Positions 2,421 to 19,534 of a DNA stretch of 64,000 nt are shown here, piece after piece. A program made the translations under genes and the position numbers. A model generated the notes under the pieces. The model saw only the letters and a program-made list of their open reading frames with translations, had not been told where the DNA came from and ran no database searches. The DNA lies in assembly GCF_004359985.1 (NCBI RefSeq), contig NZ_SMRO01000002.1, positions 2,410,209-2,474,208 of the forward strand. The letters run 5' to 3'. Each line of letters opens with the position of its first letter. Within the stretch, counting starts at the first letter, position 1. This DNA comes from Paraburkholderia flava. GTDB lineage: Bacteria > Pseudomonadota > Gammaproteobacteria > Burkholderiales > Burkholderiaceae.

Positions 2421-2533
2421 TGGTGACAGGGCAAGGCAGGAAACATGAACCCGCGCTGCTGCGCACGACCTGTCGAGCGTCGTCGCAGCACGTGTCGGGG
2501 GCGCCGCTCCTTATACGATAAGAGATACTGATC

Positions 2534-3331: not shown

Positions 3332-3346
3332 AGAGCGACGAAAGCG

Positions 3347-3385
3347 GTCGCATCGGCCATGCTTCATCCGCATGGCCGATGCGAC
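3347..3385 (+). terminator. Strong hairpin after lipoprotein gene
   Basis: A perfect 15-bp inverted repeat (GTCGCATCGGCCATG and its complement) with a 9-base loop starts 15 bp after the lipoprotein stop. No T-run follows, so it may act as an mRNA 3' stabiliser or a factor-dependent stop rather than a classical terminator. Confidence 0.6.
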
Positions 3386-3597
3386 CCATCAAGCCGACAG
3401 GTGAACCGGGTATTGCGTACGTATCGCGTACGTCCGGTTGGCAGATCACGCATTGCTCTTCCATGACGTTCCCGCCTCCGGCATGTCATGCAACAGGTAG
3501 CACGCCTGCAAATCTATATCCCCCTATAGCTTTGACGAGCAGCGAAGTCTGACGGGACGTGATCCCGTCACCTGATCGACGCCCACCAGAAATCTGG

Positions 3598-4416: not shown

Positions 4417-4440
4417 CTGGGGCTTTGCTTCGTGATAATC

Positions 4441-4455
4441 GTTCAATTTCGCTCA
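4441..4455 (+). promoter_or_regulatory. Degenerate GTTCA-N5-G(C)TCA direct repeat upstream of ACP gene
   Basis: GTTCA at 4441-4445 and GCTCA at 4451-4455, i.e. a 10-bp repeat period, 85 bp before the ACP start codon. It matches in orientation and spacing, with one mismatch, the four perfect copies at 8642-8715 and 11268-11372. Proposed binding site of the OmpR/PhoB-type regulator encoded at 4922-5665 (inference). Confidence 0.4.
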
Positions 4456-4540
4456 AGCGATGGCTTGCTAGTATCCCCTTAAGCCGGCCACGCAACTCTC
4501 TTCAGGCGGCTCTATATCTTGCGAGTAAAGGAGACTGACG

Positions 4541-4858
4541 ATGGTCGTGAGCGCAGGTTTTCAAAGCGACAGTCCGCAGGCTGTGTCGATACCTGTCCGC
4601 GACTTGCCGCGTGTTCGCGCCGACGTCGCAAACGAAGTGCTCGCGCACATCAGGGCCTGGATGCAGGCGCGAAATCTCTCTCTGCCCACTGATCTCGATC
4701 GCACGTTCGTCGAAGCCGGTTTCGATTCGCTACATGCGGTCGAGCTAGGTCTCTTTCTGGAAAGGAAGCTCGGCAAGCCAATCGACGAAGCATCGCTGTA
4801 TGACCTCCCGACGTTCGCGTCGTTGATCGCGTATCTGGTCGATCGGGCCGAAGAATAG
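4541..4858 (+). CDS. Free-standing acyl carrier protein
   Basis: 105 residues. The phosphopantetheine attachment motif is GFDSLHAVEL, with Ser63 as the predicted modified residue, and the rest follows the four-helix carrier protein pattern. The ribosome site AAAGGAG lies about 10 bases before the ATG. The ~25-residue N-terminal extension is longer than in primary-metabolism AcpP. The sequence is closer in feel to ACP/PCP domains of polyketide or non-ribosomal systems. In this neighbourhood it probably carries the acyl group used by the condensation-like acyltransferase at 5901-7136. No synthase for loading it is present in the window. Confidence 0.88.
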   Translation: MVVSAGFQSDSPQAVSIPVRDLPRVRADVANEVLAHIRAWMQARNLSLPTDLDRTFVEAGFDSLHAVELGLFLERKLGKPIDEASLYDLPTFASLIAYLVDRAEE

Positions 4859-4921
4859 AAACCTTTGCTGCTCCGATGAACGGGGCTTTGTTCACCAGAG
4901 CATGTCGGCTTTCCAGTGCGG

Positions 4922-5665
4922 TCACGCAGCGTCTAAGGGTGTGTCCAGCGATGCGCTATAGCAGGCAGCGCCAGTCAAGGTTTTCGTTTGATCCAGGCGA
5001 TACCCCAGCGTATAGATTGCCGAGAGCCGCAAGCCGTTCTCAATGCCGAATTTGAGCTTCTGCCGGATTCTGTAGATATGGGTGTTCAGCGAGCGCGAAT
5101 CTTCGCCTAGCTCCCTTCCCCACGCGGTCGTTGCGAGCAGTTCGCGGGACATGATCTTGCCGAGGTTGTGGAACAGGCAAGTCACCAGTTGAAATTCCTT
5201 GGTCGTCAGCTCGATCTTGCTGCCTCGAAGCCTCACCGTCCGTTCGACGGGATCCAGAACGTACTCACCCAGGCGAATCGGTTCGTCGCGTTTTACGTTC
5301 CGTGCGACCCGGCGCAGCAGCGCATTCACTCGCGCGGCAAGTTCCTCCGCGCGAAACGGTTTGATCAGGTAATCGTCGGCGCCCGCTTCGAGCGCCCTCA
5401 CGACGTCGAGCTCCTGAACGCGGCTCGTCAAAAAGAGCACGCCATATTCGACGTCGGCGCGCGTGCGAATCCAGTTCAGCACTTCGATGCCGGTCAGGGA
5501 CGGTAAGTGCCAATCGAGCACCACCGCGTCGACGGATTCCGATCTCAGGAACCGTACTGCCCGCTCGCCGTCGTCGACGATCTTTATCGTGTGACTGAAA
5601 GGCCTCAGTGCGTTCTGTACTTCCTCGGCCTGAACGGGATCATCCTCCACCACCAATATGCGCAT
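4922..5665 (-). CDS. OmpR/PhoB-family response regulator (orphan)
   Basis: 247 residues. The receiver domain covers residues ~1-115 with the acidic pair E7/D8/D9, phospho-acceptor Asp51 (VVLDWHLP) and Lys102 (DDYLIKPF). A winged-helix Trans_reg_C domain follows (~125-225) with LTTKEFQLVTCLFHN and the recognition region RSLNTHIYRIRQKL. The last ~20 residues (after YRLDQTK) are a non-conserved tail. No histidine kinase gene is adjacent on either side, so it is an orphan within this window. Its family binds tandem half-sites about one helical turn apart, as found in the promoters of neighbouring cluster genes. Regulation of the cluster by this protein is inferred. Confidence 0.92.
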   Translation of the reverse strand: MRILVVEDDPVQAEEVQNALRPFSHTIKIVDDGERAVRFLRSESVDAVVLDWHLPSLTGIEVLNWIRTRADVEYGVLFLTSRVQELDVVRALEAGADDYLIKPFRAEELAARVNALLRRVARNVKRDEPIRLGEYVLDPVERTVRLRGSKIELTTKEFQLVTCLFHNLGKIMSRELLATTAWGRELGEDSRSLNTHIYRIRQKLKFGIENGLRLSAIYTLGYRLDQTKTLTGAACYSASLDTPLDAA

Positions 5666-5900
5666 TCCTGCACCTCGAGTACGTGGCCATGTCTATCGTG
5701 AGTCAGCGACCGCTGCATGCGCCGAAGACGCGCAGCAAACGTTTGCGACCCTACATCCGCAGCTACCGAAAAAATCATAGAGCAAGGGTAATCAAACCAA
5801 TTGTGACATTTTATGAATTCATCTGACAAATAATGCAGGTTGGGTAACAACAAAAGGGGCGCAGTCGATAACGATGGAACGTCGGGGGTGCGAGGCTGGG

Positions 5901-7136
5901 TCAGAAGAAATTGCGGGGCGCGCAGGCTTTTTCGAGCAGCACTTCCGCGTCGTCGAGAAAGGTTGGCAACGGTGTGTGGTTCATCATCGTCAGGTGAATG
6001 CGGCCGTCGACCGACGACACCGCGACGGCGAGATACCCCGGAATGGAAGCCCGCACGAGCGGCCCCCACAGTCCGGTCAATCTGAACCTGGCGAATGGCG
6101 CTGTGTCACGAACGACACCGACGTTGGTTATCCCAAGATCAGGGGTTTTGCCGGCGCGGGACATCTGCACCAGACCCTTGGCGTCCATTCCGCCCGACAG
6201 AAGATCGCTGTATTGCCGGACGCCCTCGCCCGCCGATTCACGCGTGCCTTGCGGGTCCATCCGGCGCAGGATCTCGCGCGCCAGATCCCAGAACGATGGA
6301 TTCGCGTCCGGATCGAGTGTCGCATTCGTGCTGGTCGCAAAGAAGCCGCACTCGTACCGGCTCCCCCAGCGTCGCCGGAGATCGACGGGATTGCGTAACA
6401 GGATCGGCTCGCGACGCCAATGCGCCAGCCGTGATTTGCCCGACATCACGAACGCGCTGCAGAGCGCGCCGTGCACCGTTGTGTTCTCGTCGCGTGCGCG
6501 CTGTACAAGCTGTCGGGTGAGCCCGTGCGACAGCCTCTTGCAACGCACGACCGGAGGGCTCGTCTGCGGGTAGGAAACCCCATCGAGCGAGATCTTTTTT
6601 TGCGGTGGCACCGCGTCCGGCACCCCCAGCAAATGATTCAGGGATTGCGGGAACGACAAAGCGTCTAGCGGCTCGCCGTTGAGCACCCGCAGCAGATCGT
6701 CAAACCAGCACGTCACCGAAATGCCGTCGTATATCACGTGACTGACCGTTACCACGACGACCGAACGGTCCTTGCCTGTTGCGATCACGGCGCGCATCAG
6801 AGGTGCCGTAGCGTTGTCGAGCGGCTCAAGCAGTTCGCGAGAGAGCGTTCCGTTTAGCCACTCGTGCGCAACGCCTTCCGCGCTCCATGTTGCATCGCCC
6901 GCGTGATGCAGAGGAATCGACGAGCCGTGCACGGTTTCGAAGAATGGCCAGCCGTCCGGCGTCGCGGAAATACGAACGGAAAGCGCCGGGTGACGGCGTT
7001 GTACGGAATCAAATGCTGCACGCCAGGCCTGCGGTGTCGGCGTGCCCGCTATTTCCGCCGCATAGACGATGTGATTGCTGACGCTCCGGCATGCCAGCCA
7101 GAATACGTGCTCCACTGTGCTTAACGGTCGAAGCAT
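5901..7136 (-). CDS. Condensation-domain/PapA-like acyltransferase
   Basis: 411 residues, the size of one condensation (C) domain. The N-terminus (LSTVEHVFW) and the active-site segment VSHVIYDGIS fit the CoA/carrier-dependent acyltransferase superfamily. The canonical HHxxxDG is reduced to SHxxxDG, keeping the catalytic His133 and structural Asp137, as in PapA-type enzymes. The DFGWG-like motif is represented by GLWGPL near residue 350. Such proteins move an acyl group from ACP or CoA to a hydroxyl or amine. With an ACP and two glycosyltransferases nearby, acylation of a sugar or glycoside is a reasonable guess. It is probably co-transcribed with the glycosyltransferase gene 110 bp upstream. 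Confidence 0.78.
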   Translation of the reverse strand: MLRPLSTVEHVFWLACRSVSNHIVYAAEIAGTPTPQAWRAAFDSVQRRHPALSVRISATPDGWPFFETVHGSSIPLHHAGDATWSAEGVAHEWLNGTLSRELLEPLDNATAPLMRAVIATGKDRSVVVVTVSHVIYDGISVTCWFDDLLRVLNGEPLDALSFPQSLNHLLGVPDAVPPQKKISLDGVSYPQTSPPVVRCKRLSHGLTRQLVQRARDENTTVHGALCSAFVMSGKSRLAHWRREPILLRNPVDLRRRWGSRYECGFFATSTNATLDPDANPSFWDLAREILRRMDPQGTRESAGEGVRQYSDLLSGGMDAKGLVQMSRAGKTPDLGITNVGVVRDTAPFARFRLTGLWGPLVRASIPGYLAVAVSSVDGRIHLTMMNHTPLPTFLDDAEVLLEKACAPRNFF

Positions 7137-7246
7137 GGCCTCTCTCCGCGGATGAACCTGATGGTCAGGTGTCGGCTACTCGCCGCGACGCTAGCAAGAC
7201 CTCGGTCATCCTGACTAAAGCCGCGCCGTGGCATGAACGGGTCAAC

Positions 7247-8584
7247 TCAAGCTGTGTCCCGATGCGCGAGGCCCTCTTGCCTTCGCGCCAACTTCCGCTC
7301 GACAGCGAGCGATTCCACCACACGAACAATTTCGGCACGCGTATCGATACGCTTGAACGCCTGTGCGATGGCGGCTACCCGCTCGCGATAATGCGTCGCG
7401 TCGAGCACCGTTCTGATAGCGACGCGCAGTGCGTCGGGTGTCGGCGAGTTCGTAGCCAGATCGATGCCAACGCCGGACCACGCGACGCGTGCGTTCCCGT
7501 CCGCCTTGTCCTCGGTCCGCCCGGCGGTAACCAGAGGAACACCATAGCTCATCGCCTGGTTGACGCTGCCGTAGCCGCCATTGGTGACAAACACATCGGC
7601 CTTGCGCAGCAGCCACTCGTAAGGCAGATAGCTGGCGATGCGTACGTTGGCCGGGATGGGACCGGGAACGGCTTCGACCGGCCGGCCACCCGTGCTGACG
7701 ACCACGAGCAGATCCGGCTCGTCCGCGAGCGCCGCTAGCGCAGGTGCGACCAGCAGGCCGAAGTCATGATTGGCCACCGTGCCTTGCGTGACCAGAACCA
7801 CTTTGCGGCCGTCATCCAGTTCATCCGCCCAAGGAGGCAGCGGAGCCTGATTTTCTTCGATAGGCAATGCACCGATGAATCTCACCGACGCCGGCAATGT
7901 GGTGCGCGGAAATTCGAAATCCGGCACGGTCAACTGCATGAACGCATCGGGCAGTGCGACAACCGCATCGTTGAGATTGATCGACATCGGGCCAACGCCA
8001 AGCTCCGCCAGATATCCGTTCAGGCGACCGACAAGCGGCTCGTAGACCACACTGTCGTGTTCCCGCGCGATCTCCGCATACTGTTCGCGCTGCGCCCGGC
8101 TTGTCGCGGGCGGCAACCCGACGTAGTGCGGCGCGCCATCCTCCCGCGACCAATGCAGGATCGTCGTGTTGAACATCGCGACAGGTGGCCGCTGCGCACG
8201 CGGCCCAAGCAACATAGGCAGGACGCCCAGAAATACATGATCCACGATCACGACATCCGCTTCGAAATCTCGCAAGACCTGCTGTAGCCCAACGTGCTGA
8301 GCAATCACGTAATCGATCAGCACGAGTTGCATGCCGAGACGTTGCCTTTCCAGTCCTGGAGGCAATGCTTCGAGGCTGGGCATTTTCGAGTGGGGATCTC
8401 CGAATGCGAAATCGGCGTTGACCGGAAGAGGATGAAATGCGGCACCCATACGAACGATGCGATCTTCAAAGGCGCGTCCCGTATGGGCCACCACCTCGTG
8501 ACCTTCGTCGATCAGGATGCGCGCGATGCCAAGCATCGGATTGGCATGGCCAGCTAAAGGCGTCGCAGCGAGTACGATTTTCAT
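7247..8584 (-). CDS. GT1-family glycosyltransferase (UGT/MGT-like), copy A
   Basis: 445 residues from the ATG at 8584; a longer reading from 8632 is possible, but MKIVLAATPLAGHANP is the family N-terminus. Two Rossmann domains form a GT-B fold. The acceptor half carries the AGHxNP motif, and the donor half has VLVTQGTVAN and the nucleotide-sugar binding region VFVTNGGYGSVNQAMSYGVP (TNGG in place of the common THGG). Related enzymes transfer a sugar from an NDP-sugar to macrolides, lipids or small aglycones. It is divergent from its paralogue at 8862. TGAAC-N5-TGAAC lies 57 bp upstream of its start. Confidence 0.9.
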   Translation of the reverse strand: MKIVLAATPLAGHANPMLGIARILIDEGHEVVAHTGRAFEDRIVRMGAAFHPLPVNADFAFGDPHSKMPSLEALPPGLERQRLGMQLVLIDYVIAQHVGLQQVLRDFEADVVIVDHVFLGVLPMLLGPRAQRPPVAMFNTTILHWSREDGAPHYVGLPPATSRAQREQYAEIAREHDSVVYEPLVGRLNGYLAELGVGPMSINLNDAVVALPDAFMQLTVPDFEFPRTTLPASVRFIGALPIEENQAPLPPWADELDDGRKVVLVTQGTVANHDFGLLVAPALAALADEPDLLVVVSTGGRPVEAVPGPIPANVRIASYLPYEWLLRKADVFVTNGGYGSVNQAMSYGVPLVTAGRTEDKADGNARVAWSGVGIDLATNSPTPDALRVAIRTVLDATHYRERVAAIAQAFKRIDTRAEIVRVVESLAVERKLARRQEGLAHRDTA

Positions 8585-8641
8585 GTGGGCCTGTCTTACG
8601 TGATGTCGCGGCAGTCTTGCATGCAGCGTCAAGCGGCACTA

Positions 8642-8656
8642 TGAACATTTCTGAAC
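8642..8656 (-). promoter_or_regulatory. TGAAC-N5-TGAAC direct repeat, facing glycosyltransferase A
   Basis: TGAAC at 8642-8646 and 8652-8656, with a further TGAAC at 8664-8668. Read towards the minus-strand gene this is GTTCA-N5-GTTCA, ending 57 bp before its ATG. The 10-bp period suits tandem binding of an OmpR/PhoB-class regulator (inference). Confidence 0.55.
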
Positions 8657-8700
8657 TCATGCGTGAACTCGCATCGCTAAACATGACAGTAGTAGACACC

Positions 8701-8715
8701 GTTCATCAAAGTTCA
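8701..8715 (+). promoter_or_regulatory. GTTCA-N5-GTTCA direct repeat, facing glycosyltransferase B
   Basis: GTTCA at 8701-8705 and 8711-8715, reading towards the plus-strand gene whose ATG is at 8862. It forms an inverted arrangement with the copy at 8642-8656, so each divergent gene has a site in the same relative orientation. Confidence 0.55.
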
Positions 8716-8861
8716 GAATGAAAAAGAATCGCGTATGCGATCTTGATGCTTAAGCCATCGACCCAACAGGAAGCACAAGATCAACCCCGACCTTAGCTGC
8801 GAAGACAGTCATGCTGGAAGAACAGCTATCGAGGCGAGCGGCCCGCATCGAGAGAATTCAA

Positions 8862-10151
8862 ATGAAGATCGTCATTGCGGCGAAATCCGAGGCAGGTCAT
8901 GTCAATCCGGTAATTGCAGTCGCGCGCATTCTGATTGCCGAGGGCCATCAGGTCGCCGCGCTGACCGGCGAGCCCTTTCGCCGGCCGTTCGAAAATAGAG
9001 GTGCAATGTTTTATCCGCTTCCGGCCGAGGCTTCCCCGGATGTCGCCGACATCATGTCGAACGATCCGATGCTCAAGAGCCTGCCCGACGGCACGCCGCC
9101 GCTCGTGCGGTTTCGCATCGCCGTCGAGCACGCGCTGGTCGACCCGTTTCCGCTTCAGTACGCCGCACTACAGGCGGTGCTACGCGACTTCGATGCCGAC
9201 GTCATCGTCGGTGAAAGCGGGTTCTTCGGTACGTTGCCGATCCTACTCGGCTCAAGCGAGAAGCGTCACCGCATTGTTCTTTGCGGCACTTATTTCCTCA
9301 CATGGGAACGGGAAGACGGAGCGCCCTACCTGGGTGGTTTGCAACCCGCGACCACTGAAGCGCAGCGTGTGCAGTACGCGGCTCTCGCACGTGATCACGA
9401 GAGGTATTTTGAGCAGCCGCTCGTTAAGAGGGCCAACGAACTATTAGGAACATTGGGTGCCCGCTCGATGCCTCGAGGAATTTTCGACTCTGCGATCGAG
9501 CTCGCCGATGCGTATCTTCAGCCGTCCGTTCCGAGCTTCGAATTTCCGCGTGCGTCCGTGCCTTCGTCTGTGCACTTCATCGGCGCGCTGCCCATTACAC
9601 CCAATCTTCATCCACTGCCGCCCTGGGCGGCGGACCTGAACGGCAAGCGGAAAGTCGTGCATGTCACGCAAGGCACCGTCGCGAATACGGACTTCGGTAT
9701 GCTGGTCGCACCGACACTGGCAGCGCTCGCCGATGAGCCTGACCTGCTGGTGGTGGTGATTACCGGTGGACGTCCGCTGGATACGATCCCGGGTCCGATT
9801 CCTTCTAACGCACGGCTAGCCACTTTCCTGCCGTACGAATGGCTGTTGCCCAAGGTCGATGTGTTCGTCACGAACGGCGGCAACGGTGGCGTCAATCAGG
9901 CACTCACGTTCGGCGTTCCGCTCGTCACCGCAGGTCTGAGCGAAGACAAGGCCGATGTGAATGCGCGGGTCGCGTGGTCCGGCGTCGGCATCGATCTTTC
10001 GACGGGGCACCCCACGCCCGATGCATTGCGCAACGCCATCCGCACTGTACTAAGCGATCCTGGCTACAGGCTCCAGGCGACACGCAAGGCGAAAGAGTTT
10101 GCGGCGATAGATACGCGCGCGGAGATCCTGCGCGCGGTCACAGGAAGTTAA
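8862..10151 (+). CDS. GT1-family glycosyltransferase (UGT/MGT-like), copy B
   Basis: 429 residues from ATG 8862; an upstream in-frame ATG at 8811 would add 17 residues not matched in the paralogue's core. It is a clear paralogue of the protein at 7247-8584: both have MKIV(L/I)A at the start, HVTQGTVAN/LVTQGTVAN, LAALADEPDLLVVV, LPYEWLL and VFVTNGGxGxVNQA. The two genes are inverted relative to each other, consistent with an inverted duplication followed by divergence. Two related enzymes could add successive sugars or use different acceptors. The donor sugar cannot be told from sequence. Confidence 0.9.
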   Translation: MKIVIAAKSEAGHVNPVIAVARILIAEGHQVAALTGEPFRRPFENRGAMFYPLPAEASPDVADIMSNDPMLKSLPDGTPPLVRFRIAVEHALVDPFPLQYAALQAVLRDFDADVIVGESGFFGTLPILLGSSEKRHRIVLCGTYFLTWEREDGAPYLGGLQPATTEAQRVQYAALARDHERYFEQPLVKRANELLGTLGARSMPRGIFDSAIELADAYLQPSVPSFEFPRASVPSSVHFIGALPITPNLHPLPPWAADLNGKRKVVHVTQGTVANTDFGMLVAPTLAALADEPDLLVVVITGGRPLDTIPGPIPSNARLATFLPYEWLLPKVDVFVTNGGNGGVNQALTFGVPLVTAGLSEDKADVNARVAWSGVGIDLSTGHPTPDALRNAIRTVLSDPGYRLQATRKAKEFAAIDTRAEILRAVTGS

Positions 10152-10223
10152 GCGGCGTCACGTGGATACTCCATTGCCCGTAGCCACGCTCTAAAGCTTT
10201 TCGAAACCGCCCCTAACACCCGA

Positions 10224-11186
10224 TCATGAGCGAATTCCCTGACCGCCGAATTGATCGAGCGGCCAGTTCTCCTGCCCTTGTCCGTATCCCTCATGGCTTC
10301 CGTAAAACCAGCGCATCATCGAAAGAACGGGCATACAACTGCTGTAGCTGATCCACGGATGCTGCGCCACCGGGACGCCGATCAGATGATGTTCGACCCC
10401 GTCGATATCGGTCAGCACCTGTTCGTAGCTCAACGGAAAAGCGCCGCGCCGGATCGCCCGCTGACGTCCGGACACGAGACCACGAACCTTGCCGTCGATA
10501 AATGCGTAACCATGCGCAAGCTTGAACTGTTGCCAGTCGGCAGCGAATGGCTCGAAGGTCCAGATACTCTGAAACGCAAGCGACCTTGAGAAGCTTGCGT
10601 TCACCCAGCCCATCGCGGGCAAGCCTCGCTCGTTTCGCGGCCCCCAGCTATGGTCCATCGTGGACACGCAATCGACGTTATAAACCTGCCCTCGCACTTT
10701 AAGCGTGCCGGTGACATGCACGGTCATGTCGAAATGACTTGCGTAAGCGGCGCCGAAACCAGTCGCGTTGACATCTCCTGATGCGAGCGGATCCATCGAC
10801 CTGTCGTGAATGTCGTACGGCTCCATCAAGCCCCGCACGGTCCAGTGGAGTTCGGTGTCGTCGAGACCCACGTAGTCGACCTGGTAATCGCGCGGCTCGT
10901 TCATCGTTCGAACCTTGAGGCCGTTAGGCAGTTCGTAATCCTCCAGCCTTTCCGGCATCGGCAGATGCTGCTGGAAATCGACGTATAGCGCTTCGAGCGA
11001 CGTCTTCCCAACCGCGTTAATCATCGAGATGTCCGCGACGAACGCCCCTACGCCAGGCCGGGCGATGGTGTACACCCAGGCTGTGATATTCGCTTTCGCT
11101 ATATAGACCGAGAAAAAATTCGTTTCCGCCCAATCGTATGCAACCTCGATAGGGGTATGAAATTTCACGTCTTCCGGAAGAATCAT
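10224..11186 (-). CDS. DUF7064/DUF7065 (AttH/CrtC-like) protein
   Basis: 320 residues with no signal peptide or membrane segment. The central block VSTMDHSWGPR and the surrounding beta-rich pattern (FDMTVHVTGTLKVRG, then WTFEPF) fit the lipocalin-like superfamily that includes hydroxyneurosporene synthase/carotenoid hydratase (CrtC), AttH and DUF7064/7065. CrtC enzymes hydrate a terpenoid double bond, but most DUF7064-type members are uncharacterised, so a hydratase or lipid-binding role is only a possibility. It is transcribed divergently from the phosphohistidine-domain operon. A TGAAC-N5-TGAAC element lies 81 bp upstream of its start. Confidence 0.7.
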   Translation of the reverse strand: MILPEDVKFHTPIEVAYDWAETNFFSVYIAKANITAWVYTIARPGVGAFVADISMINAVGKTSLEALYVDFQQHLPMPERLEDYELPNGLKVRTMNEPRDYQVDYVGLDDTELHWTVRGLMEPYDIHDRSMDPLASGDVNATGFGAAYASHFDMTVHVTGTLKVRGQVYNVDCVSTMDHSWGPRNERGLPAMGWVNASFSRSLAFQSIWTFEPFAADWQQFKLAHGYAFIDGKVRGLVSGRQRAIRRGAFPLSYEQVLTDIDGVEHHLIGVPVAQHPWISYSSCMPVLSMMRWFYGSHEGYGQGQENWPLDQFGGQGIRS

Positions 11187-11267
11187 TTGATATCCATATT
11201 GAGTTGTCGAAGGCGTTACCGGTTAAAGCGGCGACCCAGCATAGAGCGCCTGCGAACGCCGACAAAG

Positions 11268-11282
11268 TGAACATTCCTGAAC
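11268..11282 (-). promoter_or_regulatory. TGAAC-N5-TGAAC direct repeat, facing DUF7064-like gene
   Basis: TGAAC at 11268-11272 and 11278-11282. Not only the repeat but also part of the spacer matches the copy at 8642 (ATTYC). In the transcription direction of the minus-strand gene it reads GTTCA-N5-GTTCA, 81 bp before the ATG. Confidence 0.55.
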
Positions 11283-11357
11283 CGTCGCGCCGTCCTTAAC
11301 GCTCTATCGCACCTGCATACCCGATGATTTGACTGAACAAGTCACGCATCGATGACA

Positions 11358-11372
11358 GTTCATAATCGTTCA
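11358..11372 (+). promoter_or_regulatory. GTTCA-N5-GTTCA direct repeat, facing phosphohistidine-domain operon
   Basis: GTTCA at 11358-11362 and 11368-11372, oriented towards the plus-strand operon starting at 11533. Same period and orientation rule as at 8701-8715. Confidence 0.55.
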
Positions 11373-11532
11373 AACATCTTTTTCCGAGAGCCGTCTAATC
11401 TGCGGCGTCCACTATTGTTTCTGATGCGAAGGTCGGAACCGCTTTAAATCCCGACCCCAGCTTTCGAAAAACAATGCAGCGATGGTGGGCCACTATTCGA
11501 TCGTCCAAGAACTAAAAAATCCGAGGGCAAAG

Positions 11533-12273
11533 ATGAACCGATACACCAACGAGAATTGGTATGGTGGCGCGCCAGCGTCGCTGCTGGTCGAGACCATTCA
11601 CGGCGCAATCAGGGATCTCGTCCACCGCGAGGTTGCGCAAAGCGGTGGCGACTGGACGTCGTTCGTGTCCGGAGGCGCCGACTCGCTGATTACGAAGCAG
11701 GCGCTGGCACGCATCGAAGAACAGGTGCTTGCAACAGGCTATCGCTTTACATCCGCATCGCTGACGTCGCTGCGCGACCGGCCGGATGCCTACAAGGACA
11801 CGAACGGCTTCGGAACGGAGCTATCGGCCTTCAGTTTCGAACATCACGATGCGATCGTAGGGTCTATCGACGACACCGGTCGCGAGCAGCGCGGCAGCGG
11901 CGATAACGTCGTCAGACACGCCGCCGACATCGTTGGGATTGCCCGCTACATCCGTACCAGCGATCAGGTGATCCGGTACATGCAAAGCGGCGTACCGGCC
12001 GACACGATCGCCATCATCGACGACAGCGGCTGCACGCTCACCGCACCGATCATCGAACAGTTCAGCGGCATCATTTGCGCGGCCGGCACCGTGCGCTCGC
12101 ACCTGGGAATCCTCGCGCGCGAATACGGCATCCCGTGTCTGATGAACGCGCGCATCAGCGGGATTCGCGAAGGCGATCGCTTGGCAATCGAGGTCAGTGC
12201 AGACGCGCGAACCGCGCAGGACTATCAAAGCGGACAGGATCGCGCCGCCCGCGTCTGGAGGTTTGCGCAATGA
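11533..12273 (+). CDS. Stand-alone PEP-utiliser swivelling (phosphohistidine) domain protein
   Basis: 246 residues from ATG 11533, chosen because GAGGG lies just upstream; an ATG at 11482 would add 17 residues. The C-terminal ~80 residues (GIICAAGTVRSHLGILARE, then YGIPCLMNARISG) match the mobile domain of PEP synthase/PPDK/phenylphosphate synthase, with His190 in the place of the phosphorylated histidine of the usual TSHAA motif. The N-terminal ~150 residues are unrecognised. There is no ATP-grasp or PEP barrel. The stop overlaps the next start (ATGA), so it is translationally coupled to the 726-residue protein and then the PPDK-like protein. Likely role: an extra phosphoryl-carrying domain in a split phosphotransferase (inference). 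Confidence 0.78.
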   Translation: MNRYTNENWYGGAPASLLVETIHGAIRDLVHREVAQSGGDWTSFVSGGADSLITKQALARIEEQVLATGYRFTSASLTSLRDRPDAYKDTNGFGTELSAFSFEHHDAIVGSIDDTGREQRGSGDNVVRHAADIVGIARYIRTSDQVIRYMQSGVPADTIAIIDDSGCTLTAPIIEQFSGIICAAGTVRSHLGILAREYGIPCLMNARISGIREGDRLAIEVSADARTAQDYQSGQDRAARVWRFAQ

Positions 12274-14450
12274 ATGCCCCGGAAAAGATAGTCCATACGC
12301 AAACGGACTCCAGCCTGAGCTATCTTCAGGTGCTGGAAGCCAACAACATCATCCAGAATTGCGGCGACGAAACGCACTGGCTAGCCGTCGCGCGAACGGT
12401 GCAACGTTCGTCGCTTTTTCCGCTTTCCGCGTGTAGCGCGCTGGGCGTTCTCAATTCGTTCTATCGGTTTCCGTCGCTGCTTCGCAAGATCGAAACGGCG
12501 ATGAAGGCAGAGGACATCGCTGACCGCGCGCGCAATCTCGGCATCAAACTTCAAAGCGCGCAGATGGGCTGGCTTTTGCCGGGTCACTATCTGGTCGGCC
12601 GCGAATGGCTGCTGGCGATGGGCATGCTCCGGCCGCAGGACGCAGCGGCAGACACCGTCTATCTGCTCGATTTCTGGCGGCGCTTCCAGCTCGCTTACCG
12701 TCGCAACGACAACCGGTTGACCAGCCGCGAGTATGGTCGTCGCGCACAGATTCTTCCCGATCGAACGCTCGAGGTATTCGCAGCCGACCTTCACCCGTGC
12801 AAACCCGGCGACGCATTGCACGAGGCCATACATCACTTCATGGCGACGGCGTCGCAATACAGTTTCGTCGCAGCATGCGAGAGCCGGATCAACGTGCACA
12901 ACTCGGGTCCGTACCGGATCGACGATACGCATGAAATGCTGGTGCGCGACTTCATGGATCTGGCTGAAGGCGGCCTGCCATGGCTCGATGGCGTCGCCGC
13001 GAATATCCCGTACAACAACTTGAGAGTCACGATCGCCACGCAAGGATGCCATTTCGACGTCGTCGACGATTGGGGCAGTTTTGAAAGTAGCCCGGCGTTC
13101 ACCTCCGACATGATCACCGGTGTCGGACTCTATTCGTCCGATCCGTTGTCGGATGGTTTTATACCCGTCGGCATGGAGTCCGCAGACGAACTGACGTCGG
13201 CGTTTCATGACCTCACCGGCAGGCTGAAAGAGGCGATGACGAACCTCTGGATGCGTCTCGCCGGATGGTCTCGCGACCAGTTGCTAGACGCCGGCGCACT
13301 CATCTACAACGGGGCGATGAGAAACCTCGCGCATATCGCGGGCGTCTACGAATCCGACGACTGGTTCACGATCGACCCACGCGCAGAACGCTTTCGCCCG
13401 TTGCTAAACGACGAGTTTTCCGAGGGCATGCTTGCCGAGCTGGCCGGCGGGATTTCGCTGCCGAGTCAACAGGCGTCGCCGTTCGTGATGATGCAACACG
13501 CCAATCGCCCGGCGTCGATGTTTACGCCGCTACCCTGTTCGCTGATAGCGGACGAGGACTACGCGCCGTCGACAGGCGATCTTCAGCGCGGCACGTCGCA
13601 TCTGCCTCCGAAAGAAGATCGCTATCGCACGTCGCGAGGCATTCTTACCGCTGCCGGATACAACGCAGCAGCACGCGCGCTGGAGCCGGTGGCTGCTTCG
13701 ACGCGCTTCCGCTATCTGTGCGAAACGTGGGTCAGGTACAACCGAAAGACATCGCTTGCCGACGACCTTTACCGGCACGAACAGCGCCATTCGCGCACAC
13801 TTCGCGACCATGGCGCAAGCCACACGCCGGACCCGCGCAAGGCATCGACAGATTCGATGTACGCGGTGCTCCATGCCCTTGCGCTCAAGCCTCACGCCTT
13901 CTCCGCCGACATCGCAACGCTGTCCGGTATCAGCCCGGAGGACACGCTCCGCCTGCTAACAGCGGCTCAGGAAAATGGCCGTGCAGTTGAAATAAACGGC
14001 AAGTTCATTCTTGGCCCGCTCGCACGCGTCGCGCTGAAAATCCGCTATGCAAACGAATACGCCGACATCAGAACGGACAGCTCGTTCATTGCTCACTACG
14101 AAGCCTTCGAGCGGATCAACGTCCAGTTCAAGGCCTTGATCACCGATTGGCAAACGGTCGAGATCGGCGGACAACGCATAGCAAACGATCACCATGACAA
14201 GCGCCATGACTTTGCGGTAATCGACCGGCTAGGCACCTTGCACGATCACGTGGACAGCATGTTGGCACGCCTTGCTCAAGCGGTGCCACGGCTTGAAAAG
14301 TATCGCGCACGCCTGCTCGCGGCATTGGAGAAGGTAGAGGAAGGCGCGATCAAATGGGTAAGCGACGCGAGCATCGATAGCTATCACTCCGTGTGGTTCC
14401 AGTTGCACGAAGATCTGCTCAGGATCGTCGGGCGGCAGCGTACCGAATAG
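12270..14450 (+). CDS. Unknown 726-residue protein with C-terminal winged-helix-like and helical region
   Basis: The start at ATG 12270 overlaps the previous stop; the reading frame is open further upstream, but that part overlaps the preceding gene. I do not recognise residues 1-~500. They are mostly helical and soluble, with conserved-looking acidic/His segments (HEAIHHFMA, FDVVDDWGSF). Residues ~526-590 (YAVLHALALKPHAFSADIAT then LSGISPEDTLRLLT) look like a winged helix. Residues ~600-726 are a helical domain with TDWQ, ANDHHDKRHD and YHSVWFQLHEDLL. From memory, similar short wHTH-helical proteins sit beside truncated PPDK-like genes in actinobacteria; this needs a search. Its place between two phosphohistidine proteins suggests it is an acceptor, scaffold or regulatory partner. 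Confidence 0.6.
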   Translation: MNAPEKIVHTQTDSSLSYLQVLEANNIIQNCGDETHWLAVARTVQRSSLFPLSACSALGVLNSFYRFPSLLRKIETAMKAEDIADRARNLGIKLQSAQMGWLLPGHYLVGREWLLAMGMLRPQDAAADTVYLLDFWRRFQLAYRRNDNRLTSREYGRRAQILPDRTLEVFAADLHPCKPGDALHEAIHHFMATASQYSFVAACESRINVHNSGPYRIDDTHEMLVRDFMDLAEGGLPWLDGVAANIPYNNLRVTIATQGCHFDVVDDWGSFESSPAFTSDMITGVGLYSSDPLSDGFIPVGMESADELTSAFHDLTGRLKEAMTNLWMRLAGWSRDQLLDAGALIYNGAMRNLAHIAGVYESDDWFTIDPRAERFRPLLNDEFSEGMLAELAGGISLPSQQASPFVMMQHANRPASMFTPLPCSLIADEDYAPSTGDLQRGTSHLPPKEDRYRTSRGILTAAGYNAAARALEPVAASTRFRYLCETWVRYNRKTSLADDLYRHEQRHSRTLRDHGASHTPDPRKASTDSMYAVLHALALKPHAFSADIATLSGISPEDTLRLLTAAQENGRAVEINGKFILGPLARVALKIRYANEYADIRTDSSFIAHYEAFERINVQFKALITDWQTVEIGGQRIANDHHDKRHDFAVIDRLGTLHDHVDSMLARLAQAVPRLEKYRARLLAALEKVEEGAIKWVSDASIDSYHSVWFQLHEDLLRIVGRQRTE

Positions 14451-14458
14451 GACACCCT

Positions 14459-16228
14459 ATGGCCATTTCATTTGGAAGATGGGTGCTTGGACTCGATGGC
14501 GGCGACTTTCCGGCAAAGGAGTTGATCGGCGGTAAGGCGTGGTCTCTTGGGCACATGTCTGCGTTAGGTCTGAACGTCCCTCCGGCATTCGTCGTGACCA
14601 ACCGCGCATGCCGGGAGTATCTGGCCGACGAAACGAACCTGACCGGCATCGAAGACGAAATTGCCGCAGGCATCGCATGGCTGGAGGCACGCACCGGTCG
14701 TACGTTCGGCGGCGGGCCTGCTCCACTGCTGGTGTCCGTACGCTCAGGCGCTGCGGTCTCGATGCCCGGCATGATGGATACCGTGCTGAACGTCGGCATC
14801 ACGGATGCGACCGAATCGCTGCTCGCGACACTGTGCGGGAATCCGGCATTCGCACGCGACACCCATTGCCGCTTCCTCGATCTGTTCACTCGCCTGGTGC
14901 TCAACGCGCCGCCCGTGGAATTTCCTCAAGAAAACGACCCTTCGGCCTGGTGCGACGCACTTGCCAAAGCAGGCAGCCCGGTGCCGGACGACGTTCGGGC
15001 ACAACTGAACATGACCGTGCGTGCGGTATTTCGCTCGTGGAACTCGAAACGCGCGCAACGGTATCGCGCTCACCATGGCATCGTCGATGACGCCGGCACT
15101 GCCGTTCTGGTGCAGGCGATGGCGTTCGGCAATCGCGACGCGCGCTCCGGGACCGGCGTGCTGTTCAGCCGCAACCCACTGACTGGCGAGCCGGTGCCGT
15201 ATGGCGAATTCCTGCCGTGCGCGCAAGGCGAAGACATCGTCTCCGGCAGAGTGACGCCGCATCCTCTCGACACGATGCGCAGCAACCTGGCGGATGCACT
15301 CGACGGGCTGCTCAATGCAGCCCGACTGCTGGAACGCGCGAACGGCGATATGCAGGACATCGAGTTCACTGTCGAGAGCGGCGAGCTGTTTCTGCTTCAG
15401 TCGCGAACCGGAAAGCGCGCACCCGAAGCAGCCGCTCGCATTGCAGTCGACATGGTGACCGAGGGATTGACCTCCCCCGAAGTCGCACTGTCGCGTGTCT
15501 CGCCCGAACAGATCAGATCGTGTCTGCGGCCCCGGCTTGCCGATAGCGCTGCCACGAGCGCGCATGCTTTACAGCGTGGCGAAGGCGCGTCGCCTGGCGT
15601 CGGCTGGGGCGTCGTCGTCACGGATCCGGACGAAGCAGAACGTCGTGCGCGACTCGGTGAAGATGTCGTGCTCGTGCGTGCCACCACCAGCCCTGACGAT
15701 CTGCACGGCATGATTGCAGCCCGTGCGATCGTGACGGAATCCGGCGGAGCCACCTCTCACGCTGCCGTGGTCGGCAGGGCGTTGGGACGCCCATGCGTGG
15801 TCGGTTGCGGTAGCGGTGTTGTCGCCGCGCTCAACGGTCGCGTGGTAACCGTCGATGGAAGCACCGGCGTCGTCTACGACGGAGCGCTGCAGGTCGCCGC
15901 CCCGGACGAAGAAAACGACGCGATCCTGCAGCGCCTCTGCCGTCTCGCCGAAGCCCATGCACCCGTCGAGATTCACGCTGACAGCAGCGCCGCTGCATTG
16001 CCGGCCCACACCGATTTCTCCTCCGTTTCCGACCTCGCCGTGCTGCGCGACGCGTTAGCCGCACTTCCGCAAGGAGCCACGGTCAGCGGGTCAATCTTTG
16101 CGCAGGATGACGAAGCGATAAAAGCCGCTGTCGAAGCGGGTGTGGCCAGAATTTTCACGCGGCCACGCCTGCCGGCTCTGCTCGCGTCCATTCGCTATGC
16201 CGGCGCGAAAGAACTCGTCGTGAGCTAA
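14459..16228 (+). CDS. PPDK-like protein lacking the C-terminal PEP/pyruvate barrel
   Basis: 589 residues against ~880 for full PPDK. The start at ATG 14459 is 8 bp after the previous stop. The ATP-grasp domain is clear: LIGGKAWSLGHM, VSVRSGAAVSMPGMMDTVLN, GTGVLFSRNPLTGEPVPYGE, AQGEDIVSG and MQDIEF-LLQSRTGKR. The phosphohistidine domain follows with GGATSHAAVVGRALGRPCVV, catalytic His434 (nt 15758-15760). After ~100 more residues the protein ends where the TIM barrel that binds PEP/pyruvate should begin. The ATP half-reaction should therefore be possible, but the acceptor must be something else, either another subunit or a small molecule. Phenylphosphate synthase and rifampin phosphotransferase are precedents for such rewiring. 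Confidence 0.88.
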   Translation: MAISFGRWVLGLDGGDFPAKELIGGKAWSLGHMSALGLNVPPAFVVTNRACREYLADETNLTGIEDEIAAGIAWLEARTGRTFGGGPAPLLVSVRSGAAVSMPGMMDTVLNVGITDATESLLATLCGNPAFARDTHCRFLDLFTRLVLNAPPVEFPQENDPSAWCDALAKAGSPVPDDVRAQLNMTVRAVFRSWNSKRAQRYRAHHGIVDDAGTAVLVQAMAFGNRDARSGTGVLFSRNPLTGEPVPYGEFLPCAQGEDIVSGRVTPHPLDTMRSNLADALDGLLNAARLLERANGDMQDIEFTVESGELFLLQSRTGKRAPEAAARIAVDMVTEGLTSPEVALSRVSPEQIRSCLRPRLADSAATSAHALQRGEGASPGVGWGVVVTDPDEAERRARLGEDVVLVRATTSPDDLHGMIAARAIVTESGGATSHAAVVGRALGRPCVVGCGSGVVAALNGRVVTVDGSTGVVYDGALQVAAPDEENDAILQRLCRLAEAHAPVEIHADSSAAALPAHTDFSSVSDLAVLRDALAALPQGATVSGSIFAQDDEAIKAAVEAGVARIFTRPRLPALLASIRYAGAKELVVS

Positions 16229-16337
16229 CGGCTACTCGACACTCCACGCGGCCTCATGGAACCGGCGCCGCGTGATTGCCGCCTGACGTCGACATGGCTG
16301 TGAAGCCGGAAACTAACCCCACTGTGAGGAGCAAGTC

Positions 16338-17096
16338 GTGTCAAGACTCGTTGAAAAAGTAGCGCTAGTGACGGGCGGAACGTCCGGCATCGGAAAGGCA
16401 ACTGCCCTGCTCTTCGCGAAGGAAGGCGCGAAGGTCGCGATCGCCGCGCGACGGGAAGACGAAGGGCAACAGGTCGTCCGCGAAATCCGCGAAATGGGCG
16501 GCGAAGCCATTTTCGTCAAGACCGACGTGACGAAAGCGGACGACTGCGCGTCGGCGGTCTCCCGTACGGTCGCGTCATTCGGGAAACTCGATATCGCGTT
16601 CAACAACGCCGGCATCTCGCGATCGGGCCAGCCGACCGCCGACACCGACGAAGAAGCATGGGACGCCGTCATAGACGTCAACCTCAAGGGAACGTTTCTG
16701 TCGATGAAGTATGAGATCCCCGAGATCCTGAAGGCCGGCGGCGGGTCCATCATCAATATGTCGTCGACGTACGGCCTGATCGGTTCCGCGCTCGGCGCGT
16801 GTTCCTATCACGCGTCAAAGCATGGAGTGATCGGCATTACCCGCGCCGCAGCGCTCGAATACGCGAAACAGAAGCTGCGGGTCAATGCGGTCTGCCCCGC
16901 GTTCGTGGCGACCGATATGATCAGCGAATTTCTTGCGGATCCCGATGTCGCGGCTCACCTCGCGTCGCTGCACCCCATCGGCAGAATGGGCAAGCTCGAG
17001 GAAACAGCGGAGGCGGTCGTCTTTCTCGCGAGCGACGCGTCGACCTTCATCACCGGCACTACGTTGTCGATCGACGGCGGGATGGCCGCAGGCTGA
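16338..17096 (+). CDS. Short-chain dehydrogenase/reductase (classical SDR)
   Basis: 252 residues from a GTG with GAGGA 7 bases upstream. The cofactor motif TGGTSGIG is at residues ~12-19, NNAG near 89, catalytic Ser in the NMSSTYG strand, and YHASK as the active-site Tyr-Lys pair. The C-terminus (FITGTTLSIDGGM) is typical of FabG/glucose-dehydrogenase-like SDRs. An Arg pair after the first strand (AARRE) suggests NADP preference. It lies 110 bp downstream of the PPDK-like gene on the same strand and may be the last gene of the cluster. The substrate is unknown. Confidence 0.9.
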   Translation: MSRLVEKVALVTGGTSGIGKATALLFAKEGAKVAIAARREDEGQQVVREIREMGGEAIFVKTDVTKADDCASAVSRTVASFGKLDIAFNNAGISRSGQPTADTDEEAWDAVIDVNLKGTFLSMKYEIPEILKAGGGSIINMSSTYGLIGSALGACSYHASKHGVIGITRAAALEYAKQKLRVNAVCPAFVATDMISEFLADPDVAAHLASLHPIGRMGKLEETAEAVVFLASDASTFITGTTLSIDGGMAAG

Positions 17097-17306
17097 ACAC
17101 GAATGACATGCGCGGCGCAAGCCGCCGCGCATAGACACGCCGCCCAAACCCCCGCCTCATCAAAAACGGCTTCGCTTCACCGCACCCCGCTTCGCATCCC
17201 CGCCTCGCCGCCCATCTTCCAGCCGCTACATTGACTACAGGTACCGTCACCACGGTTCCCCAACGTAGCTCCCTCTTCAGCAACCCTTTGCCCCAGGAGA
17301 ACCACC

Positions 17307-17528
17307 ATGGCAGCAGCAGGCAAGTTACTCGGCAGCGTTTCGCACGTCGCGGAAAAAGCAAATCCGGTCCTCGAAGGCGCCAACGGCGTGAAAGAACTGT
17401 TCGGTAAAAAAGAAACCGGCGAGTCGAACAGCCCGGCACCGGCCGGTTCGCCCCCGGACAATGCGATCCAGCAACTGATCCAGAGCGTGGAGCAGGCGCT
17501 GAGCGGCGGCTCGGGTTCGAACACGTAA
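17307..17528 (+). CDS. Small hypothetical protein (73 aa) upstream of HrpB1-family gene
   Basis: CAGGAG lies ~9 bases before the ATG. The protein has an amphipathic N-terminal half (KLLGSVSHVAEKANP), a Ser/Pro/Gly-rich centre and a short terminal helix (DNAIQQLIQSVEQALSGG). It has no membrane segment. The short helical character and position next to an HrpB1-family gene would suit a type III secretion-related small protein, but I recognise no family. Confidence 0.6.
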   Translation: MAAAGKLLGSVSHVAEKANPVLEGANGVKELFGKKETGESNSPAPAGSPPDNAIQQLIQSVEQALSGGSGSNT

Positions 17529-17546
17529 TCGATGCGAGGACTCCCC

Positions 17547-17924
17547 ATGGACCTGCTCCAGACCAATGAGGCCGCCCGGCTGGGGCGGGCCGTGATCGAC
17601 AGCATCAAGGCCAATAGTTTCGACGAGGCCGAGACGCTTCTTCAGCAGTTGCACGAGGTGCATCCGGCCTCGAAGGACATGCTGATTTTCCCCGTGCTGA
17701 TGGCGATTCAACGCGGCGACGTGCGGGGCGCATGGCAGATCGTCAACGGCTTGCCCGACGACGAAAGTCCCGAGTTGAAGGCACTCTGCCTGTACCTTCT
17801 GAAAGATCCGTCGTGGCACAGCTATGCGACGGCACTCGAAGAAAGCCCGGACCCGTACATCCGTAAAGCGATGCTGCGACTCCTCGAACGCGAGGAAGAA
17901 ACGGGCCTCGGCGAGCCGGCGTGA
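17547..17924 (+). CDS. HrpB1/HrpK-family type III secretion protein
   Basis: 125 residues. The start at ATG 17547 is preferred over 17532 because GAGGA sits 6 bases ahead of it. The sequence is a helical TPR-like repeat protein: LGRAVIDSIKANSFDEAETL, then LLQQLHEVHPASKDML and GDVRGAWQIVNGLPDDESPE. This fits the HrpB1/HrpK family found in hrp type III secretion loci of Burkholderia, Ralstonia and Xanthomonas. No other secretion-apparatus gene is visible in the window, so it is an orphan copy. It overlaps the next gene by 4 bp. Confidence 0.72.
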   Translation: MDLLQTNEAARLGRAVIDSIKANSFDEAETLLQQLHEVHPASKDMLIFPVLMAIQRGDVRGAWQIVNGLPDDESPELKALCLYLLKDPSWHSYATALEESPDPYIRKAMLRLLEREEETGLGEPA

Positions 17925-18415
17925 TGAAACGGCTCGGTCTTGGCGCTCGTGCGGATCTGAACGTCTATTACGAGGCAGAAATGGCTCGTTATAGAACGCT
18001 CGGCGAGCACGGGCAAAAGATGCTGCAGGTCGTCACGCTGGAACGCTTCATCGATTTTTTCAACGCATGTCCCTCGATCGGTTTCGAGTACGACGGGAAA
18101 CCGATCGGGGGCATGATTTTCGACGGCGAAGAAGCGCACGTCGCGGTGCTGCCCGAGTATCACGGACGCTGGGCGTTGCTGTGGGAACCGGCACTCGACT
18201 GGGTCTTCAGTCTCAAGCAGGAAATCCACGTCAAGGTCGAGGCGTTCAACGACACGTGTATCGCGTTCATGGAACGCAATGGCTGGCCCGCGATCGATCG
18301 CGTCGACGGCTTCATCGTCTATCGGATGACGCCGCATACGCGGGTGCGCAAGGGGATCGGTCTGTCCGCGAATCGCTTGAACAATCCCGCACACGCGGCC
18401 CGCGCGTCCGCATAA
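17921..18415 (+). CDS. GNAT-like acetyltransferase-fold protein
   Basis: 164 residues, starting at GTG 17921 or ATG 17924 and overlapping the preceding stop, so translation is probably coupled to the HrpB1-like gene. The middle part (AHVAVLPEYHGRWALLWEPA) has the beta4-turn-helix3 character of GNAT enzymes, with HGRW in the pyrophosphate loop position. The segment FNDTCIAFMERNGWPAI matches the usual N-x-x-x-x-x-F-x-x-x-G-(F/W) element near the C-terminus. Phage-borne GNATs often look like this. The substrate is unknown. Confidence 0.6.
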   Translation: MMKRLGLGARADLNVYYEAEMARYRTLGEHGQKMLQVVTLERFIDFFNACPSIGFEYDGKPIGGMIFDGEEAHVAVLPEYHGRWALLWEPALDWVFSLKQEIHVKVEAFNDTCIAFMERNGWPAIDRVDGFIVYRMTPHTRVRKGIGLSANRLNNPAHAARASA

Positions 18416-18685
18416 ACCACCGAACCGCGCCGCAGTGGCACGGCCATTGCTGATGATGCCCGGCGTGCGTCGCTGATGCCCGCACAACCCGTATGGATTT
18501 TGTCAGGCCCGATCCCGGCGAACGCGTCGAGTGCGCGAGGCCAGGAGAATCCGGCAAAGCTTCAAGATATTCAGGCATTCCCTGTCCCGATGCTCAGGCC
18601 TACCATGGCAATCTCGCCGGAAGGCACACGCACGTGCATGCCGTCTCCCCCACGGCCGTCACCCGAACCGAACAGGAGTCTCTCC

Positions 18686-19534
18686 ATGATGAATCGCAAC
18701 AATCCCGTCTGGCTGATCACCGGCTGCTCGACCGGCTTCGGTCGCGAACTCGCGAAACTCGTGCTCGAACGCGGCTGGCGCGCGGTCGTCACCGCACGCG
18801 ACGTGTCGAAGGTCGAGGACATCGTCAAGGGTCACGAAGACCAGGCACTCGCACTGCCGCTCGATGTGAACAACCCTGAGCAGGTCGCGCAGGTGGTCGC
18901 GCAATCCGTCGCGCGCTTCGGCCGCATCGACGCGCTCGTCAACAATGCGGGCTACGGCTATCTGGCCGCGATCGAGGAAGGCGAAGACGACGCGGTACGC
19001 GACATGTTCGAAACCAACGTGTTCGGTCTCGTCGATATCACGAAGGCCGTGCTGCCCACGATGCGCGCGCAGAAAAGCGGCTTGATCGTCAACGTGTCGT
19101 CGATCGGCGGTCTCGCGAGCTTCGCGGCGACCGGCTATTACCACGCGACCAAATATGCAGTGGAAGGTCTGTCCGAATCGCTCGCGCTCGAAGTGAAGCC
19201 GCTCGGCATCGACGTGCTGATCGTCGAGCCGGGTCCGTTCCGCACGAACTGGGCAGGGCCGTCGATCAAACAATCGGCGGTGCGCATCGCCGATTACGAC
19301 GCGACCGCCGGCGATCGCCGCAAGCAGACCGAAGCGCGCAGCGGCAACCAGGCGGGCGATCCGGTGCGCGCCGCGCAGGCGATCATCGATGCGTCGCTGT
19401 CCGACACGCCGCCGCTGCGTCTGCTGCTCGGCAAGGCGGCGCTCGAACTCGCACGCAAGAAGCTCGATACGCTGCGTCACGACTTCGACACGTGGGAAGC
19501 AACGACGGTCGGTGCCGATTTCCCGCAGGGCTAG
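18686..19534 (+). CDS. SDR-family oxidoreductase
   Basis: 282 residues. The start is ATG 18686 (or 18689), placed by AGGAG ~9 bases upstream; the frame is open back to 18476, but that part lacks protein-like content. TGCSTGFGRE is the dinucleotide-binding motif, NNAGYGY follows at ~87, and YHATKYA carries the catalytic Tyr and Lys. The TGxSxGfG variant and long C-terminal region are typical of the extended YbbO-like/retinol dehydrogenase-like SDR group. It is monocistronic, with a hairpin at 19578-19600 downstream. Confidence 0.9.
   Translation: MMNRNNPVWLITGCSTGFGRELAKLVLERGWRAVVTARDVSKVEDIVKGHEDQALALPLDVNNPEQVAQVVAQSVARFGRIDALVNNAGYGYLAAIEEGEDDAVRDMFETNVFGLVDITKAVLPTMRAQKSGLIVNVSSIGGLASFAATGYYHATKYAVEGLSESLALEVKPLGIDVLIVEPGPFRTNWAGPSIKQSAVRIADYDATAGDRRKQTEARSGNQAGDPVRAAQAIIDASLSDTPPLRLLLGKAALELARKKLDTLRHDFDTWEATTVGADFPQG

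Follow-up and report, generated by a model that had tools for sequence, protein, structure and literature searches.

VadK (Rv1127c) from Mycobacterium tuberculosis autophosphorylates His422 with ATP and Mg2+ without a pyruvate/phosphoenolpyruvate (PEP)-binding domain; the accessible part of its description names Rv1126c as the operon partner and presents VadK as a regulatory protein histidine kinase that interacts with methylcitrate-cycle enzymes (PMC13400623). The Hpe pathway employs the kinase HpeHI, in which HpeI is an ATP-grasp protein and HpeH combines a substrate domain with a swivel (PMC12167813), together with the biotin carboxylase HpeCBA, the phosphatase HpeD and the coenzyme A (CoA) synthetase HpeE, and only phosphorylated ketones are given as substrates of HpeCBA (PMC9618137). 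These and the other published systems are cited here from the accessible parts of the papers. Three adjacent genes, designated A, B and C, were analyzed in a 64,000-nucleotide stretch of Paraburkholderia flava (contig NZ_SMRO01000002.1, positions 2,410,209 to 2,474,208; hereafter the window). Their domain composition and the comparison of relatives make it rather probable that they form one split ATP-dependent small-molecule dikinase with two histidine carriers. The modules are as follows, with row counts referring to alignments of the relatives and the window:

11533-12273, plus strand: A, lone phosphohistidine swivel protein of 246 aa; swivel at about residues 121-223, His190 at bases 12100-12102
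12270-13820, plus strand: BN module (residues 1-517 of B), proposed substrate-binding/acceptor domain; R206, R226, D266 and D267 in 84/84 rows
13821-14450, plus strand: BC module (residues 518-726 of B), small helical protein, proposed partner of C; motif SxHxxW(F/M)xxH
14459-16228, plus strand: C, barrel-less protein of 589 aa related to pyruvate phosphate dikinase (PPDK); ATP-grasp at about residues 6-340, swivel at about 374-473, His434 at bases 15758-15760

A previous sequence-only reading of this DNA proposed three coupled genes, and the open reading frames (ORFs) were confirmed. Gene B (12270-14450, 726 aa) overlaps the end of A by 4 bases (ATGA), and C starts 8 bases past the end of B, while an alternative in-frame ATG of A at 11482 would extend that protein upstream to 263 aa. 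All three ORFs are intact and coding-like, with a GC content at third codon positions (GC3) of 0.70-0.75, and BN and BC share one open frame.

Protein A matches the Pfam family PEP-utilizers (PF00391, E 1.8e-8) over residues 158-219. Its His190 is a histidine in 74/74 aligned rows and aligns with the swivel histidine of C and of an HpeH-like protein, bearing out the lone swivelling His domain predicted by the sequence-only reading. Protein C contains PPDK_N (E 1.1e-41) and PEP-utilizers (E 1.5e-23) domains, aligns to PPDK crystal structures over residues 6-479 and ends in a tail of about residues 474-589. The similarity to PPDK stops at residue 509, equivalent to position 536 of 865 in the full PPDK model TIGR01828 and approximately the start of the barrel. 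C scores 484.1 against TIGR01828, below the cut-off of 843.45, and 745 bits against NCBIfam PRK05878.1, above the cut-off of 456; the latter family presumably covers Rv1127c. A Pfam search at E values up to 1 gave no PEP/pyruvate barrel domain in any of the three proteins. In the alignment of C, made up of the window and 48 of the 63 loci where C was matched, His434 is kept in 49/49 rows, as are R95, D300, E302, Q314 and R316, and K26 is present in 48/49 (one gap); these six residues we take to be the counterparts of those that bind ATP in PPDK. The predicted make-up of C, an ATP-grasp and His434 ending near the barrel start, and the predicted integrity of the ATP site and of both histidines agree with these alignments, in which no loss of ATP-binding residues was seen. 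Judged by its domains, C belongs to the barrel-less PPDK type of VadK, and a C-type part is already known. The likely rewiring towards a non-pyruvate target gained support, as did the likeness to phenylphosphate synthase and rifampin phosphotransferase (RPH), but a barrel-less C is not itself a novelty, since the VadK type has been described (PMC13400623).

Protein B gave no Pfam match up to E 1. The 726-residue partner was indeed unrecognised, as the sequence-only reading held, but it is not a single unit: of the 64 loci having both BN and BC, 63 encode them on separate ORFs, the exception among the relatives in this ORF comparison being locus L048, where the two modules are fused as in the window. 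In BC, H189 and H196 are present in 65/65 rows, and the BN alignment displays many invariant charged residues, including the four listed above. The AlphaFold2 model of B, with a mean predicted local distance difference test score (pLDDT) of 82.7, is largely well defined in BN and weak in places in BC, and consists of helices and one antiparallel-strand region. A cryptic barrel, named earlier as the finding that would overturn the proposal, was not seen in this model, for which Foldseek returned no match in the PDB at E ≤ 0.001, the VIA rows covering BC only. BN therefore has no recognised fold so far, as far as the model goes, and is not claimed as a new fold. A BN profile search against PDB chains gave one match, unrelated and at E 1.8.

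Relatives were collected by scanning the contigs of public genomes with a BN alignment, which found 120 (an earlier scan with B alone as the query had found none), and the best 80 of the 120 were taken. Forty of these 80 were well flanked, with at least 8 kb before and at least 9 kb after BN. Genes were labelled by the best blastp match to reference genes at E ≤ 1e-8, the AMP ligase, thiolase and short-chain dehydrogenase/reductase (SDR) labels being valid at family level only. Coverage and identity filters dropped alignment rows of A at 2 of 75 loci, of BN at 1 of 84, of BC at 0 of 64 and of C at 15 of 63; the remaining rows include near-duplicates, L016 and L083 representing one and the same region, and certain records named Klebsiella pneumoniae are metagenome bins not to be taken as that species. 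Anywhere on the stretch, the 40 well-flanked loci contain A in 40, BC in 38 and C in 38, and all four modules stand together in 38/40, from the two phyla Pseudomonadota and Actinomycetota, so their co-occurrence exceeds chance. The departures among the 40 are L074 and L087, which hold only A and BN and whose genomes carry C elsewhere (62% and 58% identical, respectively), and L083, where biotin carboxylase was not found. The search for co-occurrence of the trio, suggested with the original proposal, thus identified it as a cousin of a widespread operon module. A BN search in 398 genomes sampled from the phylum matched only the window's own genome, and a B search in 196 related genomes matched 8 at E ≤ 0.001, the own genome included and two (G024, G075) too weak for use. 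Within the genus, 11 of 144 genomes, the window's own among them, contain a C-like match above 100 bits, and the system is therefore sporadic.

The context of the relatives appears to be catabolic. Among the 40 well-flanked loci, AMP ligase was found in 38, biotin carboxyl carrier in 38, biotin carboxylase in 37, carboxyltransferase in 38 and thiolase in 25; the three-subunit biotin carboxylase is complete in 37 of the 38 loci holding A, BN, BC and C, and all seven parts lie on the BN strand in 37/40. The AMP ligase gene is located between BN and BC in 37/38, and a tyrosine-phosphatase-like gene also occurs at the actinobacterial loci L024 and L025 (Pfam was run on L024). The enzyme kinds in these carboxylase-linked operons match those of the Hpe pathway, and by analogy we infer that A, BN, BC and C take on the function of HpeHI there, seemingly replacing it. 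The operons of the relatives seem to degrade ketone-like compounds. The Hpe-type layout, a kinase module beside a three-subunit biotin carboxylase, is present in relatives and not in the window. At L016 (contig C5 of G190, 37517-41907, minus strand), three carboxyltransferase genes stand in a row beside the kinase module.

Fusions and module numbers provide further information on how the parts may work together. A, BN and BC form a single protein of 793 aa in Rhodococcus opacus B4 (L027), and at L017 and L018 it is BC and C that are joined in one protein. Of the 84 loci compared, 14 carry several BN-type ORFs. Twelve of these each hold three A, three BN, one BC and one C, while L100 (three A, three BN, one BC) and L106 (four A, four BN) show no C on either short stretch. 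The 12 loci with C form one actinobacterial clade in the BN tree and therefore count as one retained event; within the same 12 loci, A is fused to a BN-type domain in 12 ORFs. A structure model of an A/BN-type fusion reached a mean pLDDT of 64.7, at which the domain placement was not interpreted. Its swivel resembled the PPDK phosphoryl-carrier domain 2fm4 (probability 1.00, E 3.5e-3), pyruvate kinase and RPH, all structure matches being weaker than E 0.001. Because A and BN are multiplied jointly in this clade and C and BC stay single, A with BN would be the substrate-specific unit and C with BC the shared donor, and the module numbers are taken as the best comparative argument for this donor/acceptor split. 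BC is accordingly placed beside C as its proposed partner and BN is put forward as the substrate-binding or acceptor domain; the acceptor, which the sequence-only reading regarded as missing, is likely to be BN with its own carrier A.

The domain architecture, the conserved residues, the association of the genes and the fusions and numbers of modules are observations; the chemistry, the transfer order and the substrate class of the following scheme are inferred. ATP would be bound in the PPDK-type grasp domain of C and His434 phosphorylated, with AMP and PPi as the presumed products by analogy with PPDK, VadK being the only such protein for which the literature reports autophosphorylation. The BC module would hold C, so that C and BC act as a general donor, from which the phosphoryl group would pass from His434 to His190 of the free swivel A. 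A would then pass it on to the hydroxyl or enol group of a small molecule bound in BN. In most of the examined relatives, the product would subsequently be carboxylated by the biotin enzyme and activated by the AMP ligase, as in the Hpe pathway. A broader version, held only tentatively, is a modular dikinase resembling the phosphotransferase system, in which one ATP-charged donor (C with BC) serves interchangeable pairs of A and BN, barrel-less PPDKs including VadK are general donors, and BN is a new phosphoryl-acceptor family. If so, each pair of A and BN would phosphorylate its own small molecule after His-to-His transfer.

In the window, the trio has the following neighbours:

10224-11186, minus strand: divergent gene for a DUF7065/DUF7064 (Rv3169-family) protein of 320 aa, from Pfam/NCBIfam
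11187-11532, no strand: intergenic region of 346 bases between the divergent genes, possibly a shared promoter region, from coordinates only
16338-17096, plus strand: SDR oxidoreductase 109 bases downstream of C, a possible pathway enzyme, from domain matches

The carboxylase branch is gone here, and the product would probably go to the SDR enzyme and/or the DUF7065/DUF7064 protein. The latter exceeds the cut-off for DUF7065 and falls below those for DUF7064 and the Rv3169 family, and it is the single match in its genome. A-BN-BC-C clusters have a relative of this protein (38-41% identical) next to them in three further genomes of the genus (L019, L020, L130), whose BN proteins are only distantly related to that of the window (about 22% identical for L019 and L020), and DUF7065 proteins also lie near C at L028 and L029. 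No DUF7065 relatives were found at the 84 compared loci, nor, within the comparisons made, at L017, L018, L027 and L131-L138, which speaks against an association; gene neighbourhood nevertheless makes the protein a probable functional associate of the trio.

Several explanations compete with the split dikinase. The nearest to it supposes that A docks directly onto C and is charged straight from its ATP-grasp, with the swivel of C being regulatory or serving another acceptor; the system would still be a dikinase without a His-to-His relay. The swivels of A and C align at the active histidine, and HpeH is thought to be charged by HpeI in this way according to the accessible literature, but the conservation of His434 in every row is unexpected for a spare domain and VadK phosphorylates its own His422 (PMC13400623), so direct docking is considered unlikely. 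A regulatory phosphorelay, as proposed for VadK, would assign the role of protein histidine kinase to C and that of regulators or targets to A and B, with no small molecule phosphorylated. This is consistent with the autophosphorylation of VadK and its interaction with methylcitrate-cycle enzymes (PMC13400623), with a weak winged-helix match of the BC part of L027 to TrmB (E 3.4e-4, under the cut-off), and with the annotation of BC relatives in 22 plasmid records, 6 of which call them transcriptional regulators (MarR family in 3). The catabolic operon context of 37 of the 38 complete loci, the equal numbers of A and BN and the invariant, active-site-like charged residues of BN argue against it, and it is regarded as improbable. 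Very improbable is a trio running in reverse and using a phosphorylated metabolite to form ATP, a direction also open to bacterial PPDK, which is reversible (PMC13400623), for the module of the relatives adjoins ATP-consuming carboxylase and ligase genes in an energy-spending layout.

The split dikinase itself must be weighed against a group of unfavourable observations. As far as the accessible text goes, the published role of VadK is that of a regulatory histidine kinase and not of a part of a small-molecule kinase; residues 570-586 and 696-702 of B, both in BC, are modelled with low confidence. No similarity of BN to the rifampin-binding domain or to any PDB chain was detected, and its substrate role therefore rests on association, fusion and numbers. 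Others concern the window copy. Its BN nests with carboxylase-linked relatives (a six-row set, SH-like approximate likelihood ratio test 98, quick method), the nearest being Sphingobium estronivorans AXB at 61-62% identity among the best 80 of the 120 relatives, yet no other end branch in the BN tree is as long as its own (0.87), and the tool reports the placement of such a long row as unsure. The window copy deviates at positions with at least 97% conservation among the rows, in BN (T41A, K48S, Y55C, Y60V, F106H and H149R, the last being histidine in the other 83 rows), in A (S75A, G167C, G184A), in C (R197K) and in BC (T190S). A carboxyltransferase query found no match in the window's genome, with positive controls of 753 bits in the L030 genome and 662 in the L016 genome, and no ligase or carboxylase was found among the neighbouring proteins scanned (288-19531 of the window). 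Because of the residue losses, the long branch and the missing carboxyltransferase match, the function of the window copy may be changed or decaying. An outright remnant, left over from a carboxylase-linked operon and now decaying or moonlighting without its original activity, would account for these observations and for the lack of a ligase or carboxylase among the scanned neighbours, but the three ORFs are intact with coding-like GC3, BN and BC occupy one open frame and the catalytic residues of A and C are retained, so a remnant has a low probability, similar to that of the phosphorelay. A part in estrogen catabolism was considered and rejected: the known estrogen cluster of S. estronivorans AXB is on another contig, and the accessible text of the N. 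tardaugens paper contains neither 'dikinase' nor 'biotin'. For fusaric acid, also considered, B. ambifaria is named in the VadK paper (PMC13400623).

Other observations were made around C-type proteins and in the window. A protein of 675-714 aa adjoins a barrel-less relative of C in four further genomes of the genus (L131, 9971-12112, minus; L132, 9592-11691, minus; L134, 5859-7913, plus; L135, 5726-7750, plus). The 675-714-aa proteins of L131, L134 and L135 are mutually 69-70% identical without significant similarity to B, and that of L135 has a C-terminal PhoU-like (DUF47) match just under the cut-off; these proteins are perhaps a further partner type of barrel-less PPDKs. At L019 (8618-11140), L020 and L130, the C relatives of about 840 aa bear a long C-terminal extension without Pfam match (L019 was tested). 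Close to the VadK-like clusters of L027 and L029 are genes whose annotation is phosphotransferase or ecdysteroid 22-kinase family, so that one pathway may employ several hydroxyl kinases that are unrelated to each other. Lying upstream of the DUF7065 gene, 5901-10151 of the window holds a PapA-like acyltransferase and a macrolide/UDPGT-type glycosyltransferase, with a second glycosyltransferase-like ORF at 7247-8632 on the minus strand (likeness by eye only), and is possibly a glycolipid cluster. At 288-2420 lies a YadA-type trimeric autotransporter adhesin.

If the split-dikinase reading holds, it would extend split dikinases from one to two carrier histidines and from two proteins to four modules, and would suggest a function for a Pfam-less family of alpha-, beta- and gammaproteobacteria and actinobacteria. 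The linked carboxylase operon predicts a route of phosphorylation, carboxylation and activation for compounds that probably bear a ketone. No description of an A-BN-BC-C module was found in the literature searched, where most subscription journals are missing, and within it the two-carrier, four-module arrangement, the unrecognised acceptor family and the operon context are apparently undescribed.

Compared with known systems, C shares the ATP-grasp and the swivel His domain of complete PPDK and lacks its barrel. RPH has three functional parts, ATP-grasp, substrate domain and His swivel, but in a single chain with one swivel (PMC4844700). Phenylphosphate synthase PpsAB and phenylphosphoamidate synthase Pas phosphorylate small aromatic compounds with ATP by PPDK- or PEP synthase-like subunits before carboxylation, whereas a single conserved histidine, in the alpha subunit, and a UbiD-type carboxylase are reported for them in the accessible text (PMC7500099, PMC12167813). 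HpeHI is a hydroxyphenylethanone kinase and accepts 4-hydroxyacetophenone. Compared by description only, it is likewise a split ATP-dependent dikinase with a phosphohistidine swivel, as proposed here (PMC12167813, PMC9618137), and in its pathway it works with a biotin carboxylase, a CoA synthetase and a phosphatase, as in the carboxylase-linked relatives. HpeI, however, is described without a swivel, whereas C carries its own, and HpeH unites substrate domain and swivel in one chain, whereas A is a free second swivel encoded separately from BN, their fusion occurring in distant relatives only, with the swivel first. In the searches described above, BN showed no detectable similarity to RPH or to other PDB chains. 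VadK and C have in common the barrel-less ATP-grasp with a catalytic histidine, and possibly also the small partner alongside, although neither a lone swivel A nor BN appears in the accessible part of the VadK description (PMC13400623). The relative on plasmid pP7a of M. avium (L029) shares 49% identity with C across 501 residues, and a BC gene comes after it. Set beside BC by description only, Rv1126c may, from its position, be a BC protein. VadK would then be the donor half of such a module, which would give a testable alternative for the targets of the VadK group of barrel-less PPDKs.

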